Notes under the pieces: model-generated
What the model was told of the DNA's origin: nothing
Database searches by the model: none
Seen by the model: only the letters and a program-made list of their open reading frames with translations
Translations under genes and position numbers: made by a program
Shown: positions 37,179 through 52,443 of the stretch, in pieces
Position numbering within the stretch: position 1 is the first letter of the stretch
How the letters are laid out: each line of letters starts with the position of its first letter
Assembly: GCA_016342355.1 (NCBI GenBank)
Contig: JAEINP010000013.1
Span: forward strand, 1 to 64,000
DNA length: 64,000 nucleotides
Source: Desulfatibacillum sp.
Lineage (GTDB): Bacteria; Desulfobacterota; Desulfobacteria; Desulfobacterales; Desulfatibacillaceae
Direction of reading: 5' to 3'

Positions 37179-37627
37179 ATTTTTTGAGGTGGGCAAGCGT
37201 TTGGGGCTTTAACTGAGCCATGCCGGATTTTGCACGGCTTAACCAAGCCTACGAAATGCTATCGTGGCAGGGCTTGCCCGGCATGGCGGTTGCGTGGTCC
37301 CCGCGCTCGGATACCCCCGGGCAGGGTTGAATTCGCCGTGTAGGGAACACTGGTATGTATTCCCACGCAGGAGCATTGGAATGAGGAATGTCAAATGAAT
37401 CCGGTATGTTTAATATGCCATGTAGCCGCAGGGCTTGCCCTGCCAAGGCGCGCCAGCGCTATAGCGGCCCGAATGATTTTCAAGGCCGGGAATGGATGGC
37501 GGCCCATTGGGATTGTTTGAATCCTGGCTTCAGGGGCGAAAACAGGTTCATCGCAGACCTTGGAATTTACAAACGCTTCGGTCGACTTACTGTCCATCGG
37601 AGTTGGCTTCCGCGTGGCAAGTTCAAT
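37179..37627. other. Intergenic region with palindromic repeats, 449 bases
   Basis: No gene is visible. It holds at least two CTTG-centred palindromes (37264-37282, 37422-37443) and a GTAGGGAA/TTCCC-armed palindrome (37340-37366), relatives of the repeats in 46.6-48.4 kb. Confidence 0.6.
37422..37443 (+). repeat. CTTG-centred palindromic repeat
   Basis: GTAGCC leader, then arms GCAGGGC/GCCCTGC around TT. The same core occurs at 46881-46904 and 48369-48390. Confidence 0.75.
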
Positions 37628-45191: not shown

Positions 45192-46553
45192 TCAGGCTGC
45201 TTTCTTGCCCACCAGCCCCAGCATTTTAAGCATAACCAGGGAGACCGCCATAATCCCTACAAAAACCAGCACCGTCAATCCTACGCTCCAGCCCCACCAC
45301 AAAGGAGCATTGACCAGCACCGCGCCCCCTCCCACAATGGGTAGGGCGAATGCGTTCATCACGGCGATTTCATACGCCACGGGAGTACGGAATTCCGGGT
45401 CCACGATCCTCAACAGCAACAGTCCGCACGAAACCGTGCCCGTGACCGTCCCGAATATGGCGGCCGTGCGTTCCAAAGAGTACTGGGGAAGCCGCCTGCC
45501 GAACCAGATGACCAGCAAGGTGGTGCAAACCCCCACCGCCAGGGAGATCACCCCGATAGGCAGGATGTACTCCCACACCACTTTTAGCTGGATGGCCATG
45601 ACCGTGGCTACAATCAGGAAATCCACAGACCATCCCGTGATTCTGCGTTGGACTCCCGGGTCTGGCAGATGGCCCAATCCCAGCAAATCCATGGCCTTCT
45701 TAAGCCCCAACGCCACGCCCAGGCCCATGAAAAAGAAAAATCCCCACAAAATAATGCCCACGTCCGGCGGTAAAAAAGACCCCAACACTCCGATGATGGC
45801 GTAGGTGACGCCGTAAACAATGCCGATGAGGGCGGCCTGAAAAGCCAGGGTCTCGGCGTTGCCCGAGTGGATGGTCAGCTTGCCTGCCGATTCGCATTCC
45901 GCGTCTTTGGAATAGACGCCCGTGATGCAGTCCCGGGTAAGGTTTTCCTGCCCATGGAAAGCCCACCCCTTGCGCATTCCATAATTCACCAGGGGCACGC
46001 CCACGAAAAAGGAAAAGAAATAACCCACTGCTGCAAAGGTAAGCCCGATAGTCGCCCCATTGGCAAAGCCCACGGCTTCCCACGCCTTGCCTATGGATAG
46101 GGCCTGGCCCGGGCCTTCGTTAAAACCCAGGGGAACCAAAAACCCGAAAGTGCTAAACAACTCCATGCCCAAAGCACCGAACACCAAAACCACAAGCCCG
46201 CCGATCACGGCTTGCATGGGAAAGGTCAAACCTTGTATGAGGGCCATCCAGGCGGGACCTTTCATGCCATGGAATTTGGAGGTTGGTACGTTCGCATCCT
46301 CGCTTCGTGTCAGGCCCACGGAAATAAAGGATATATTGAAAAAATGATATCCGAAATTTTCCAGGGCGCTGGTTTCCACGTCAATCAGCCTGGTTTGCAT
46401 GAGGATTAATCCGGCAAAACCTCCCACAAGGCAACTGGGGAACAAAAATTTCTGGATGAATCCCACCCTGGCCCGGAGATAAATACCCACCAGAAAAAAG
46501 AAGGATAACCAGGCGAAAACCAGCATGGAGTCAAAGGCAAAGGGGACGTTCAT
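45192..46553 (-). CDS. ESS/GltS-like sodium:carboxylate symporter
   Basis: A 453-residue membrane protein with about eleven hydrophobic segments. FGFLVPLGFNEGPGQALSIGKAW and TVTGTVSCGLLLLRIVDPEFRTPVAYE are typical of the ESS (glutamate:Na+) superfamily, with the FNEGPGQA and GTVTGT loops forming the substrate site. The substrate may be glutamate or another dicarboxylate. A diverged partial copy of its 5' end, including 20 bases upstream of the start, lies 1.7 kb away at 47899-48267. Confidence 0.82.
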   Translation of the reverse strand: MNVPFAFDSMLVFAWLSFFFLVGIYLRARVGFIQKFLFPSCLVGGFAGLILMQTRLIDVETSALENFGYHFFNISFISVGLTRSEDANVPTSKFHGMKGPAWMALIQGLTFPMQAVIGGLVVLVFGALGMELFSTFGFLVPLGFNEGPGQALSIGKAWEAVGFANGATIGLTFAAVGYFFSFFVGVPLVNYGMRKGWAFHGQENLTRDCITGVYSKDAECESAGKLTIHSGNAETLAFQAALIGIVYGVTYAIIGVLGSFLPPDVGIILWGFFFFMGLGVALGLKKAMDLLGLGHLPDPGVQRRITGWSVDFLIVATVMAIQLKVVWEYILPIGVISLAVGVCTTLLVIWFGRRLPQYSLERTAAIFGTVTGTVSCGLLLLRIVDPEFRTPVAYEIAVMNAFALPIVGGGAVLVNAPLWWGWSVGLTVLVFVGIMAVSLVMLKMLGLVGKKAA

Positions 46554-46707
46554 AGGCGTCTTGTGCTCCGTTTTGAAGGGTTCTTATGCAAAGGGCTTGA
46601 GGGCATCACAATGATAATCCGTCATGGGCATTACTACTGTTAATAGATTGGGTTGAGGGGCGTTGATATTATGGTTAATATTCTATATGTGGTTGCCCCG
46701 CCCCGCC

Positions 46708-46740
46708 GTCATTCCCGAGCGTATCTGTCGGGAATCCAGT
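46708..46740 (+). repeat. dRS3-like palindrome, copy A
   Basis: Arms ATTCCCGA and TCGGGAAT with a GTCATTCCC lead and GAATCCAGT end. Three relatives lie at 47332, 47426 (inverted) and 47598. Confidence 0.8.
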
Positions 46741-46755
46741 CCTTGTCTTTTTGCC

Positions 46756-46779
46756 GTAGGGGCGCCGCTTGCTGCGCCC
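46756..46779 (+). repeat. CTTG-centred palindrome
   Basis: GTAG leader, arms GGGCGC/GCGCCC around a CGCTTGCT centre. Near-identical to 46967-46990. Confidence 0.75.
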
Positions 46780-46791
46780 TGTGGCTTTGCC

Positions 46792-46819
46792 GTAGGGGCA
46801 ATTCCCCTGTGGTTGCCCC
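46792..46819 (+). repeat. GTAGGGGC palindrome without CTTG centre
   Basis: GTAG leader, arms GGGGCAA/TTGCCCC with an 13-base centre. A relative of the CTTG family. Confidence 0.6.
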
Positions 46820-46844
46820 AAAAAAAAATCAATGAATCCCATAT

Positions 46845-46871
46845 GGGCAGGCACGGGGGCCTGCTCCCTAC
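46845..46871 (-). repeat. GTAGGG palindrome without CTTG centre
   Basis: On the minus strand GTAGGGAGCAGGC pairs with GCCTGC over a CCCCGT centre. Confidence 0.55.
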
Positions 46872-46880
46872 GTACAACAG

Positions 46881-46904
46881 GCAGGGCAAGCCCTGCGGCT
46901 ACAT
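46881..46904 (-). repeat. CTTG-centred palindrome
   Basis: Minus strand: TGTAGCC leader, arms GCAGGGC/GCCCTGC around TT; same core as 37422-37443. Confidence 0.75.
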
Positions 46905-46966
46905 AGCAAAATAAAAGGCAGACCAATGGTTGAAATTCTCGGCGGCATGAAACGCCTTGTGGTCAC

Positions 46967-46990
46967 GTAGGGGCGCTGCTTGCTGCGCCC
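46967..46990 (+). repeat. CTTG-centred palindrome
   Basis: GTAG leader, arms GGGCGC/GCGCCC around TGCTTGCT. Confidence 0.75.
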
Positions 46991-47029
46991 ATTTAAAATC
47001 ATCGCAGCAACGCGGCCACATAAAAAAGG

Positions 47030-47057
47030 GTAGCCCGGGCAACTTGTTGCCCGGGGC
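47030..47057 (+). repeat. CTTG-centred palindrome
   Basis: GTAG leader, arms CCGGGCAA/TTGCCCGG around CTTG. Confidence 0.75.
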
Positions 47058-47228
47058 CGAAGGCCAATAGATCGACCCATGAGGACACAAGACGCCAGGG
47101 CATTATGGCGAAAGAAAACCAGTTTAATGCCAAAGGATAAACAAAACGTAGCCTCTGGACAGAACGTTCGTCCGCCCATCTTTCCAGGCCTCGGTAAACA
47201 TTCCGGGCCGCGCCTAATGCGCTTCGCG

Positions 47229-47254
47229 CCCCGGCAACAAGTTGCCACGGCTAG
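47229..47254 (-). repeat. CTTG-centred palindrome
   Basis: Minus strand: TAGCC leader, arms GGCAA/TTGCC around CTTG; related to 47030-47057. Confidence 0.7.
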
Positions 47255-47308
47255 CCAAACCAGGGAACGGCTCCCGAGGATTTAACCTTTGCGGTTAAAT
47301 GAAGCTAT

Positions 47309-47330
47309 GTAGCCGCACAGCTTGCTGTGC
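47309..47330 (+). repeat. CTTG-centred palindrome
   Basis: GTAGCC leader, arms GCACAGC/GCTGTGC around TT; compared with GCAGGGC/GCCCTGC copies both arms changed together. Confidence 0.8.
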
Positions 47331-47331
47331 T

Positions 47332-47364
47332 GTCATTCCCGAATGTTTCTGTCGGGAATCCAGT
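47332..47364 (+). repeat. dRS3-like palindrome, copy B
   Basis: Same arms as copy A; directly follows the CTTG palindrome at 47309-47330, so the two form a composite. Confidence 0.8.
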
Positions 47365-47425
47365 CTTTGTTCCATGGATTAAAAAGGGAATCATTGCCGC
47401 AATAAAACACAAAACTGCAAAGACG

Positions 47426-47456
47426 CTGGATCCCCGACTACTACCTCGGGGATGAC
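47426..47456 (-). repeat. dRS3-like palindrome, copy C (inverted, diverged)
   Basis: Reads on the minus strand GTCATCCCCGAGG to CGGGGATCCAG, with CCCC arms in place of CCC. Confidence 0.7.
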
Positions 47457-47554
47457 AGACTTGGGGCGCCCTACTGTTGTCTTATGGCGTCAGCGCCACC
47501 CGCCCAAACCCTTGAATTACGCCAACCGAACGCCTTCTCCCTCCAGTCTTCGTC

Positions 47555-47577
47555 CCTTCCCCCCTTGCGGGGGAAGG
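47555..47577. repeat. GC hairpin with CTTGC loop
   Basis: Arms CCTTCCCCC and GGGGGAAGG around CTTGC; no GTAG leader. Confidence 0.6.
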
Positions 47578-47597
47578 ACAGGATGGGGGGAAAATCT

Positions 47598-47630
47598 GTC
47601 ATTCCCGAATGTCCCTGTCGGGAATCCAGT
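47598..47630 (+). repeat. dRS3-like palindrome, copy D
   Basis: Same arms as copies A and B with a different 9-base loop. A CTTG-centred hairpin lies 20 bases upstream (47555-47577). Confidence 0.8.
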
Positions 47631-47872
47631 GTCCCTTGCCTTTGTCCTTTTTTTGGGTGGCACAGGCAGATCCGTATCCTGCCTGTGTGCAACGCACAGT
47701 AGGTTCGGCCCTGACTCCATGTTAACACCGGTGATACCCACGGGACCATTACCAACCCTATGTGTTATCCTTCCTTTGCCGGGCATTTCATTATCCAGGT
47801 TGCAAACAAAACCCTGCCTGGAAAAACTGTCCTAAGGACCCAGGTAGCAAAGGACGCTCCCTGGGCCACCCA

Positions 47873-48244
47873 CTACTTTTTACTGCCTGGGCCACCCGCG
47901 GCTTGCATGGGAAAGGTCAAACCTTGTATGAGGGCCATCCAGACGGGACCTTTCATGCCATGGAATTTGGAGGTTGGTTCGTTCGCATCCTCGCTTCGGG
48001 TCAGGCCCACGGAAATAAACGAGATATTAAAAAGATGGTACCCGAAATTTTCCAGGGCGCTGGTTTCCACATCGATCAGGCCGGACTGCATGAAGAGCAA
48101 CCCGGTAAAACCTCCCACAAGGCAACTGGGAAACAGAAACTTTTGGATGAATCCCACCCTGGCCCGGAGATAAATACCCACCAGAAAAAAGAAGGATAGC
48201 CAGGCGAAAACCAGCATGGAGTCAAAGGCAAAGGGCGCGTTCAT
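47873..48244 (-). pseudogene. Truncated duplicate of the ESS symporter 5' end
   Basis: The first about 114 codons align without gaps to the symporter at 45192-46553, with about nine residue changes, then the homology stops at 47899 and the frame runs into unrelated DNA to a stop. The matching block is 369 bases in both places (46208-46576 and 47899-48267) and includes about 20 bases upstream of the start. About three membrane segments remain, so it cannot be a working transporter. It is a duplication remnant, or the scar of a partly deleted second symporter gene. Confidence 0.85.
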
Positions 48245-48368
48245 AGGCGTCTTGTGCTCCGTTTTGAGATAGGTAAATAATTATTGGCGAAAGGAATAGA
48301 GTAAATGCGCTTGAACAGAAACTCAACAAGCATACTTGCGTCTTCGGAAATAACCTGTCCAACGCTGT

Positions 48369-48390
48369 GTAGGTGCAGGGCTTGCCCTGC
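48369..48390 (+). repeat. CTTG-centred palindrome
   Basis: GTAGGT leader, arms GCAGGGC/GCCCTGC around TT, then another GTAG. Confidence 0.75.
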
Positions 48391-48543
48391 GTAGTTATTT
48401 CCAGACGGGGAGACATATCGGCGCTATCAGCAAGTCAGACCCCGTTTATAGACGGTGGTATTATAAATTTCAAGTATCCAGAGATCATAGCCTCACATCA
48501 ATATCCTGTTTGGGAATGGAGGCGGCCCCCCCAAAAAAACAAT

Positions 48544-50805: not shown

Positions 50806-52443
50806 TTATTTGCCGAATCCGCACCTGGGGTAGATGCAGGTCTTGCAGTCCAGGCAAAATGAACCATGGCCCATTTTTGCAAGATCCCTCCGGGTGATGT
50901 CCAGGCCTGCCAAAAGCCTTGGCAGCAATAGATCAAAACTGGTTCGTTCGTGGAAAAGGGCGCAGGCGGGCACGCCGATCACCTGTACGTCGCCCATGTC
51001 CGCCAATAAGGTCATGTTGCCGGGCAGGATCGGGGACCCGTACAGGAGGTTTTCCGCCCCGGCGTCCACCAGACCCAGTCGGGTGACGTCGTCCGGGTCT
51101 ACGGAAAGCCCGGCCGTGGTCACCAATAGATCCACCCCGGCGTCCACGAATTTTTTGGCGCAATCAGCAATGGCAAGCCTGTCGTCCGCTACGATTTCCG
51201 AGCATACTACCTGGCTTCCGTAAGCCTCCACCTTTTTTTGGATAATGGGTGAAAATTTGTCCTGCACCAGACCCTGAAAAACCTCCGTGCCGGTCACCAG
51301 CACTCCCACCTTGGCCTTGCGCATGGAATGGACCGTGTACACGGGCCTGTGCGCCAGGCCGTCCAGGGCCTGGTTAAAATACTGCCTGTGGAGGTACAGG
51401 GGCAGAGCCCTTGTTCCGGCCAGCTTGTCTCCCTTGTTGACCACCGTGTAAGAATGGCGTCCGGCGCAGGCGACGCCCAGCACCGAGTTGAAAGCCTCCA
51501 GGCTTAATGTATCCACGGTGAGCAAACCGTCCTGGTCCGCCACGATTTCCGCCTTGCCCTCCCTGGGCGCTCCGGAATGAGTCACCCCATCTCCGGCAAG
51601 CGCCTTGGCGAAGGCCAGGGCCGCCTCGTCCTCATGAATCCATTCCGATCCGGGAGCGTTTTTCTCCGCCACATACACCCTGGTCCGTCCCATTTTTTGC
51701 AAACGGCATACATCCGCGCCCTTGAGTTGCTGGCCCTTTTGGTACAAGGGGCCTTTTTCCACGCCGGGAATGATTCGGGTCATGTCGTGGAGGGCGTGCA
51801 GGCCTTCGGTTTCCTCCACGTTCAAGGCCACCAGATCCGGCGTCTGCCAAAGCTCCCGGGCCGGAGCCTTTTGGGTGCTGGCATAGGGATTTTGACCCTG
51901 GCATGAAAGGCACAGGCTGCCGTCCTCCCAGGGATAGGCTTCCCCGCATCCCTTGCAAATATCAAAACCCTTGCGGCGCTTGTGCTCCACAAAGGAGTCA
52001 TGCACCTGCACTTGGGCCAGGGAGCAGAACCCGGCGCCGGCGTCGTATATCTGCTCACAAAGCAGGTCAAAGTCCTGTTCCTTTTTGGGTTTCAGCTTGA
52101 AAAACCAGGATTTCACTTCAGGCCAGGCATCCAGTTTTTCGGGGTTCACATAAACCCGGATTCCTTCGCCCTCAAATTTTTCGAACAGGGTAAGGGCGAA
52201 TAATCCCATGTTGATGACCCGCAGCCAGCCGTTGCCTATGGTGCAAGGCGTTAATAGCTGGATGGCGTCCGGCAGGCAGGCCCGGGTTTCGCAAATAGCG
52301 TCAAAAAATTCCCCCTTGGGTAGGTTCCGGGTGGCGGCGTCCACCATAAAACCGCCGATCAACATGCCCGGCGCCAAATGGCCGTGAAAATTCCGCACCA
52401 TCTCCAAATAGTGTTCATATGTGTGACTGCAAATTGTTTTCAT
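50806..52443 (-). CDS. FmdE-MoeA fusion, molybdenum-cofactor protein
   Basis: A 545-residue fusion. Residues 1-165 are FmdE-like (HGHLAPGMLIGGFMVD, then a conserved ACLPDAIQLLTPCTIGN), as found beside formylmethanofuran dehydrogenase and other molybdo/tungsto enzymes. Residues 168-191 form a zinc-ribbon (CKGCGEAYPWEDGSLCLSC). Residues about 340-520 are a MoCF/MoeA-type molybdopterin-binding domain with GVLVTGTEVF and DLLVTTAGLSVDPDDVT. A C-terminal CLDCKTCIYPRC tail may bind a metal. It probably inserts or modifies the cofactor of the oxidoreductase encoded just upstream. Confidence 0.88.
   Translation of the reverse strand: MKTICSHTYEHYLEMVRNFHGHLAPGMLIGGFMVDAATRNLPKGEFFDAICETRACLPDAIQLLTPCTIGNGWLRVINMGLFALTLFEKFEGEGIRVYVNPEKLDAWPEVKSWFFKLKPKKEQDFDLLCEQIYDAGAGFCSLAQVQVHDSFVEHKRRKGFDICKGCGEAYPWEDGSLCLSCQGQNPYASTQKAPARELWQTPDLVALNVEETEGLHALHDMTRIIPGVEKGPLYQKGQQLKGADVCRLQKMGRTRVYVAEKNAPGSEWIHEDEAALAFAKALAGDGVTHSGAPREGKAEIVADQDGLLTVDTLSLEAFNSVLGVACAGRHSYTVVNKGDKLAGTRALPLYLHRQYFNQALDGLAHRPVYTVHSMRKAKVGVLVTGTEVFQGLVQDKFSPIIQKKVEAYGSQVVCSEIVADDRLAIADCAKKFVDAGVDLLVTTAGLSVDPDDVTRLGLVDAGAENLLYGSPILPGNMTLLADMGDVQVIGVPACALFHERTSFDLLLPRLLAGLDITRRDLAKMGHGSFCLDCKTCIYPRCGFGK

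Follow-up and report, generated by a model that had tools for sequence, protein, structure and literature searches.

In the available text of PMC3733652, the superfamily of GTAG-tagged repetitive extragenic palindromes (REPs) is described by an unpaired end GTAG, a short stem and a centre, by dimers and clusters, and by RAYT genes with REPs. The accessible parts of PMC6006769 describe a relative, the subclass 2.4 REPtrons, where GT[AG]G REPs flank the transposase gene and also lie in frame inside it. Here we report a hairpin family in Desulfatibacillum sp., centred on an array within the first 64,000 nucleotides of contig JAEINP010000013.1 (C35; this whole stretch is hereafter the window). The hairpins are GTAG-tagged REPs. 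A TnpA_REP, a Y1 (HUH) enzyme of subclass 2.4 type encoded elsewhere in the genome at C5:18255-18968, appears to spread them, a reading to which we assign a probability of about 0.82.

The comparison with described systems is close. Stems of 6-9 bp lie within the 5-13 bp that PMC3733652, as available, tabulates for GTAG-tagged REPs with loops of 2-20, and the CTTG centre can just as well be taken as a TT loop with C-G as its closing pair, which fits the TY loop format that the same text gives for many members. Unlike that superfamily, the Desulfatibacillum hairpins comprise several arm classes around one common centre. Canonical subclass 2.4 REPs have three G-C pairs at the foot (PMC6006769, in the parts available); the AGG arm class linked to the C5 gene lacks these, whereas the GCY class has them. 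The variable linker with in-frame REPs between the HUH and Y parts, a subclass 2.4 feature, is present here. The Escherichia coli REP/BIME (bacterial interspersed mosaic element) system and its TnpA_REP (4er8) share the WQ....EH..R stretch, the GTAG foot, inverted pairs of unlike REPs and one class with a stem mismatch, here the GCY class only; the proteins differ in their low identity (about 15%) and in an extra disordered linker on our side. The main text of PMC3733652, searched apart from its figures, holds no mention of the Desulfatibacillum family, and a literature search returned no paper on repetitive extragenic elements in Desulfatibacillum or on REPIN/RAYT in Deltaproteobacteria. As far as the available text of PMC3733652 and PMC6006769 goes, the kind of repeat and REPs inside the gene are already known and the Desulfatibacillum family itself is new. 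A REP/RAYT system, together with its likely enzyme, is thereby recorded from this genus.

The hairpin family and its copies

The window holds six exact matches to the search pattern GTAGNNGCNNNGCTTGCNNNGC, which itself demands GTAG and places no constraint on the three inner stem pairs. Three belong to the AGG/CCT arm class (37422..37443 and 48369..48390, forward; 46881..46902, reverse), two to the GCY class (46756..46779, with its 24-base extent read off the sequence and a pyrimidine mismatch beside GCTTGC, and 46967..46990, both forward) and one to the ACA/TGT class (47309..47330, forward). Allowing up to two mismatches gives eight matches, compared with 0.41 expected from shuffles; the additional two are a decayed copy lacking GTAG at 37261 and a match at 50830 that looks fortuitous. 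Genome-wide, as the initial annotation had proposed to search, the exact pattern occurs 45 times (19 forward, 26 reverse) and the reversed pattern not once. With a narrower pattern the counts are 21 and, for its control, 0; with a looser one they are 87 and 44. In D. alkenivorans (G001), the second genome of the genus, there are 27 exact copies compared with one for the reversed pattern. With 45 own-genome copies and none for the reversed pattern, the initial annotation's caveat that copies might be few and not beyond chance does not apply. The 45 copies form 21 islands, and the window array is one of three that hold five copies. A match was also found in 34 of 395 genomes drawn from the phylum; where a genome has a single match, it is in many cases unpaired and looks like chance.

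The layout is a GTAG head, a stem of 6-9 bp and a centre of CTTG (or TT); in the GCY class, the stem has 6 bp plus one pair above its mismatch. DNA folds of four forms left GTAG unpaired. These features agree with those tested for GTAG-tagged REPs and bear out the earlier proposal of a REP-like family; no Rfam family matches the hairpins. The stretches read contain 40 copies, of which 20 lie inside some open frame of at least 100 aa, most of these frames being short and unsupported; one copy is in the RAYT gene, and another in a long frame opening with an ACPS domain. Such a frame, of 523 aa, lies at L033:40-1608 (reverse), in which an ACPS domain at residues 2-95 is followed by repeat DNA with a REP.

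Nine copies had originally been named in the window, and six of them are the exact matches above. The copy placed at 37264 is the decayed AGG-class element at 37261..37282 (forward), which has two mismatches to the pattern and no GTAG head. That at 47030 (47030..47055, forward) is a GTAG-headed, perfect 9-bp stem, CCCGGGCAA/TTGCCCGGG around CTTG, which folds as given; its sequence is a different one, matched once in the window. The copy placed at 47229 is decayed (47233..47254, reverse, recognized by eye), with a GGCAA/TTGCC stem around CTTG at about 47233-47246 and CTAG for GTAG, and has a related copy in C90. Two further GTAG-headed palindromes were recognized by eye: GTAGGGGCAATTCCCCTGTGGTTGCCCC at 46792..46819 (forward), which has a long centre and for which related copies were found, and GTAGGGAGCAGGCCCCCGTGCCTGCCC at 46845..46871 (reverse), a near form of which lies within the gene in other RAYT loci.

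Paired arms and composite units

Complementarity between the arms is far above expectation. Of the inner stem pairs in the own-genome copies, 108/135 are Watson-Crick, compared with a mean of 59.1 when right arms are redealt, and in 10,000 redeals 108 is never attained; a set of 40 forms taken from other genomes has 76/120 paired compared with 39.0, again with no redeal as high. The signal is carried by a few arm classes: AGG/CCT (16 copies), GCT or GCC with TGC or CGC (11), ACA/TGT (4) and GTG/CGC (4). In the GCY/YGC class a pyrimidine-pyrimidine mismatch adjoins GCTTGC. Thus far the early suggestion that both arms change together holds, in that they do so between classes. Within the AGG class it fails: departures across the genus are one-sided (AGG/CAT, AGG/CTT, AGG/CCC, AGA/CCT, CGG/CCT and GGG/CCT, together with TGG/CCT in a tandem array and AGG/CTG, which has two changes on one side), and no form compensated at a single pair was seen among 72 genus copies. 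Because these changes are one-sided, we infer that pairing is set in a copied source and not maintained site by site, the copies decaying afterwards.

Unlike classes are also joined into larger units. In the own genome, AGG-class and GCY-class REPs stand head to head across a 64-65-base spacer that is homologous between copies. The whole 110-base unit is found at 46881..46990 in the window (spacer 64 bases), in C90 and twice in C19 as a 149-base tandem, and its left part recurs in C78 and C129. These two classes meet tail to tail, about 9 bases apart, in G025, G155 and G127. Ten such pairs were read from these three genomes, and their flanks fall into three unrelated contexts; seven of the ten dispersed pairs have longer common flanks and are thus part of a larger repeat. 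GTAG boundaries in the remaining contexts are compatible with insertion of a GTAG-bounded unit. Across these genomes, in-gene and dispersed pairs match over the stretch running from GTAG through CTAC, beyond which their flanks are unrelated; the pair inside the RAYT-type gene of G025 and a dispersed pair differ, by eye, at 1/53 bases of that stretch. D. alkenivorans has, in addition, a 24-base tandem array of single REPs.

A candidate transposase

Searching the own genome with PF01797 gave eight Y1 matches; neither these nor any of the RAYT matches found by the other searches lie on C35, in line with the initial report that no transposase lies near the array. An NF047646 profile search of 17 REP-bearing genomes revealed a divergent group whose profile matches are split in two by an insert, and the own-genome member of this group is the gene at C5:18255-18968. 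REPs lie around it (17289, 17339, 17918 and 18165) and inside it (18636), where the REP is in frame and translated VDAGLAL; about 0.8% of placements for a gene of this size fall within 500 bases of a REP. A truncated copy of the gene (C5:17435-17704) sits between two REPs. The association extends to the C49 gene of D. alkenivorans, with an in-frame REP (VGAGLAL), and to the G025:C1 gene, where a whole unlike pair is in frame and translated VGAGLALPNRGAASSAPT; the C25 gene of D. alkenivorans has an altered form (VGSGLAL). The suspicion that a RAYT might be encoded elsewhere is in this way matched by a specific gene.

The proteins carry a conserved HUH motif (MPNHxHG) and the Y of REYI across the alignments. 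The WQ....EH..R stretch is present in aligned relatives, and in E. coli TnpA_REP it contacts GTAG, according to the available text of PMC6006769. Against PF01797 (cut-off 23) the C5 protein reaches 25.1 bits and the C49 protein 22.9, and all three of C5 (61 bits), C49 (53) and C103 (50) miss the NF047646 equivalog cut-off of 80 bits. The subclass 2.4 assignment of the C5 gene was made by anatomy and not by published profiles. For the D. alkenivorans relative, a protein model has core blocks mostly at pLDDT (predicted local distance difference test) >85 and a linker, at about residues 93-157, mostly <50, and the REP-coded stretch falls in this disordered linker. Foldseek matches the model best to 4er8, the E. 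coli RAYT with its REP hairpin, and also to the IS608 and ISDra2 transposases, so that a TnpA_REP fold is predicted. As separate observations, a 429-aa open frame in G379 (L111:891-2177, reverse) contains two copies of a RAYT N-terminal part separated by REPs, and many subclass 2.4 matches stop at about profile position 92-104 (for example G000:C5:17435, G028:C19, G109:C99, G320:C59). These ends correspond to the REP-bearing linker, as though it were a point of gene breakage.

Hairpins inside the gene are common among relatives. A named-genome search with 14 aligned proteins gave at least 588 matching stretches, and we read the best 80 loci, which come from many phyla. Scanned for GT[AG]G hairpins, these loci had 3.23 per kb inside the gene; outside it, the density was 1.5 up to 0.5 kb away, 0.43 between 0.5 and 1 kb, 0.25 between 1 and 2 kb and 0.24 between 2 and 4 kb. 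A GTAG-only hairpin lies in the gene in 67/80 relatives, compared with 2/80 after shuffling and 1/22 other RAYTs (those of 30 loci from the NF047646 search that had full flanks), and in 48/80 a forward hairpin precedes a reverse one within the gene. REPs centred on GCTTGC were found in only 2/80 relative loci. At the genome level, a subclass-2.4-type protein (E 1e-20) is present in 12/16 genomes with at least two REP matches, G006 (two REP matches) lying outside this comparison with 60 REP-free genomes picked by hand. The association (Fisher one-sided p 0.002) lends weak support, because the profile was built from REP-bearing genomes.

From this anatomy we infer that the C5 enzyme cuts and moves the REPs. 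It would bind the single-stranded hairpin through the GTAG foot and the loop or unpaired stem bases, as assays of such enzymes indicate (recognition of GTAG with loop or stem irregularities; PMC8266576, as available). The stem would need pairing while its sequence was free to vary. Single strands would be cut and joined, so that a GTAG-bounded unit, either one REP or an inverted pair of them, is pasted elsewhere. Arm classes would covary because whole hairpins are copied, with dispersed copies then decaying base by base. With a constant head and centre and differing stems, the family is a natural hairpin set suited to tests of enzyme recognition.

Several observations weigh against this explanation. 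For the similar own-genome gene on C103, the 2.2 kb that were read contain no CTTG REP, and the GCY class is not inside any own-genome RAYT read. Four of the 16 REP-bearing genomes (G105, G127, G155 and G368) lack a subclass 2.4 match at the same threshold, and 19/60 REP-free genomes carry one. The family has a modest number of copies, some of which, as the homology of their spacers and flanks indicates, were produced when larger segments were duplicated. Cleavage and movement are here deduced from sequence.

Alternative explanations and the surrounding array

A variant, which we consider improbable, would have the in-gene REP or unlike pair serve both as protein code and as the template for dispersed copies. 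Selection for a paired in-frame linker would then keep the arms complementary, and a new dispersed class would begin with an arm change in the gene. We compared in-gene and dispersed types using GTAGGGGCAGGCCCCNGTGCCTGCCC in 50 of the 80 relatives' genomes. Six of these loci carry the exact type in the gene, with 1, 57, 1, 3, 1 and 1 genome matches (in-gene copy included), and six of the other 44 genomes also match (1, 11, 9, 1, 3 and 1). The in-gene type is therefore a poor predictor of the dispersed type across these 50 genomes, a result that does not favour the master-copy variant and also counts against spread by the C5 enzyme. Because transposase genes bearing REPs occur in many phyla, it can be tested whether the REP in the gene is the source of the dispersed copies or a mere passenger.

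Another improbable reading is that the hairpins are kept as RNA elements, such as transcript ends or mRNA stabilizers, and spread solely by segmental duplication. The G(CUUG)C tetraloop is extra-stable in RNA, so the centre could give a stable loop; many hairpins sit between genes, and larger duplicated segments do carry REPs. However, both orientations are present (19 and 26), the one-sided AGG-class changes come without a compensated single-pair form, GTAG is constant among the pattern's copies though unpaired, REPs lie inside transposase-type genes, and Rfam offers no match.

That the REPs are moved by the C46 RAYT (C46:13392-13820) instead of the C5 gene is about as doubtful. Its 101 bits exceed the NF047646 cut-off and an AGG-class REP lies about 0.55 kb away, but the repeat that immediately borders the gene, with one copy on each side in opposite orientation, is a different one, GTGGCMCAGGNAG...CTNCCTG (C46:13279 and 13908), and we therefore rank the C46 RAYT second as partner. 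Chance palindromes in GC-rich spacer DNA, for which the crowding of several palindrome kinds in the array might speak, are refuted by the genome and window counts and by flanks common to different copies.

Comparison with D. alkenivorans indicates that the array differs between species. The decarboxylase beside it is 84% identical there, and the REP-rich spacer from this gene to the membrane-protein gene (46577..48543, about 1.96 kb; roughly 1,964 bases) corresponds to about 208 bases at G001:C24. In the comparison of occupied and empty sites suggested at the outset, no CTTG REP occurs in the printed 208-base spacer, and the spacers do not align, so the difference holds at the level of the locus and not of an empty site at nucleotide level. 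These data fit either gain of the array in the window's lineage or loss in D. alkenivorans. The REP-rich insert ends in a 369-base second copy of the membrane-protein gene's 5' part (46208-46576 and 47899-48267, 92.7% identical).

The array also holds other repeats. The GTGGCMCAGGNAG...CTNCCTG element occurs at 47657-47685 (forward) and 47841-47869 (reverse), with 10 strict copies in the own genome and six in D. alkenivorans; since it flanks the C46 RAYT, repeats tied to two different RAYTs share one array. A third palindrome, GTCATTCCCGA...TCGGGAATCCAG, lies at 46708-46739, 47330-47364 and 47597-47630 and also elsewhere in the genome. Additionally, a longer dispersed repeat with CTTCCCCCCTTGCGGGGGAAG (47504-47649) is 91-93% alike in C78 and C90 and has shorter matches in several further contigs.
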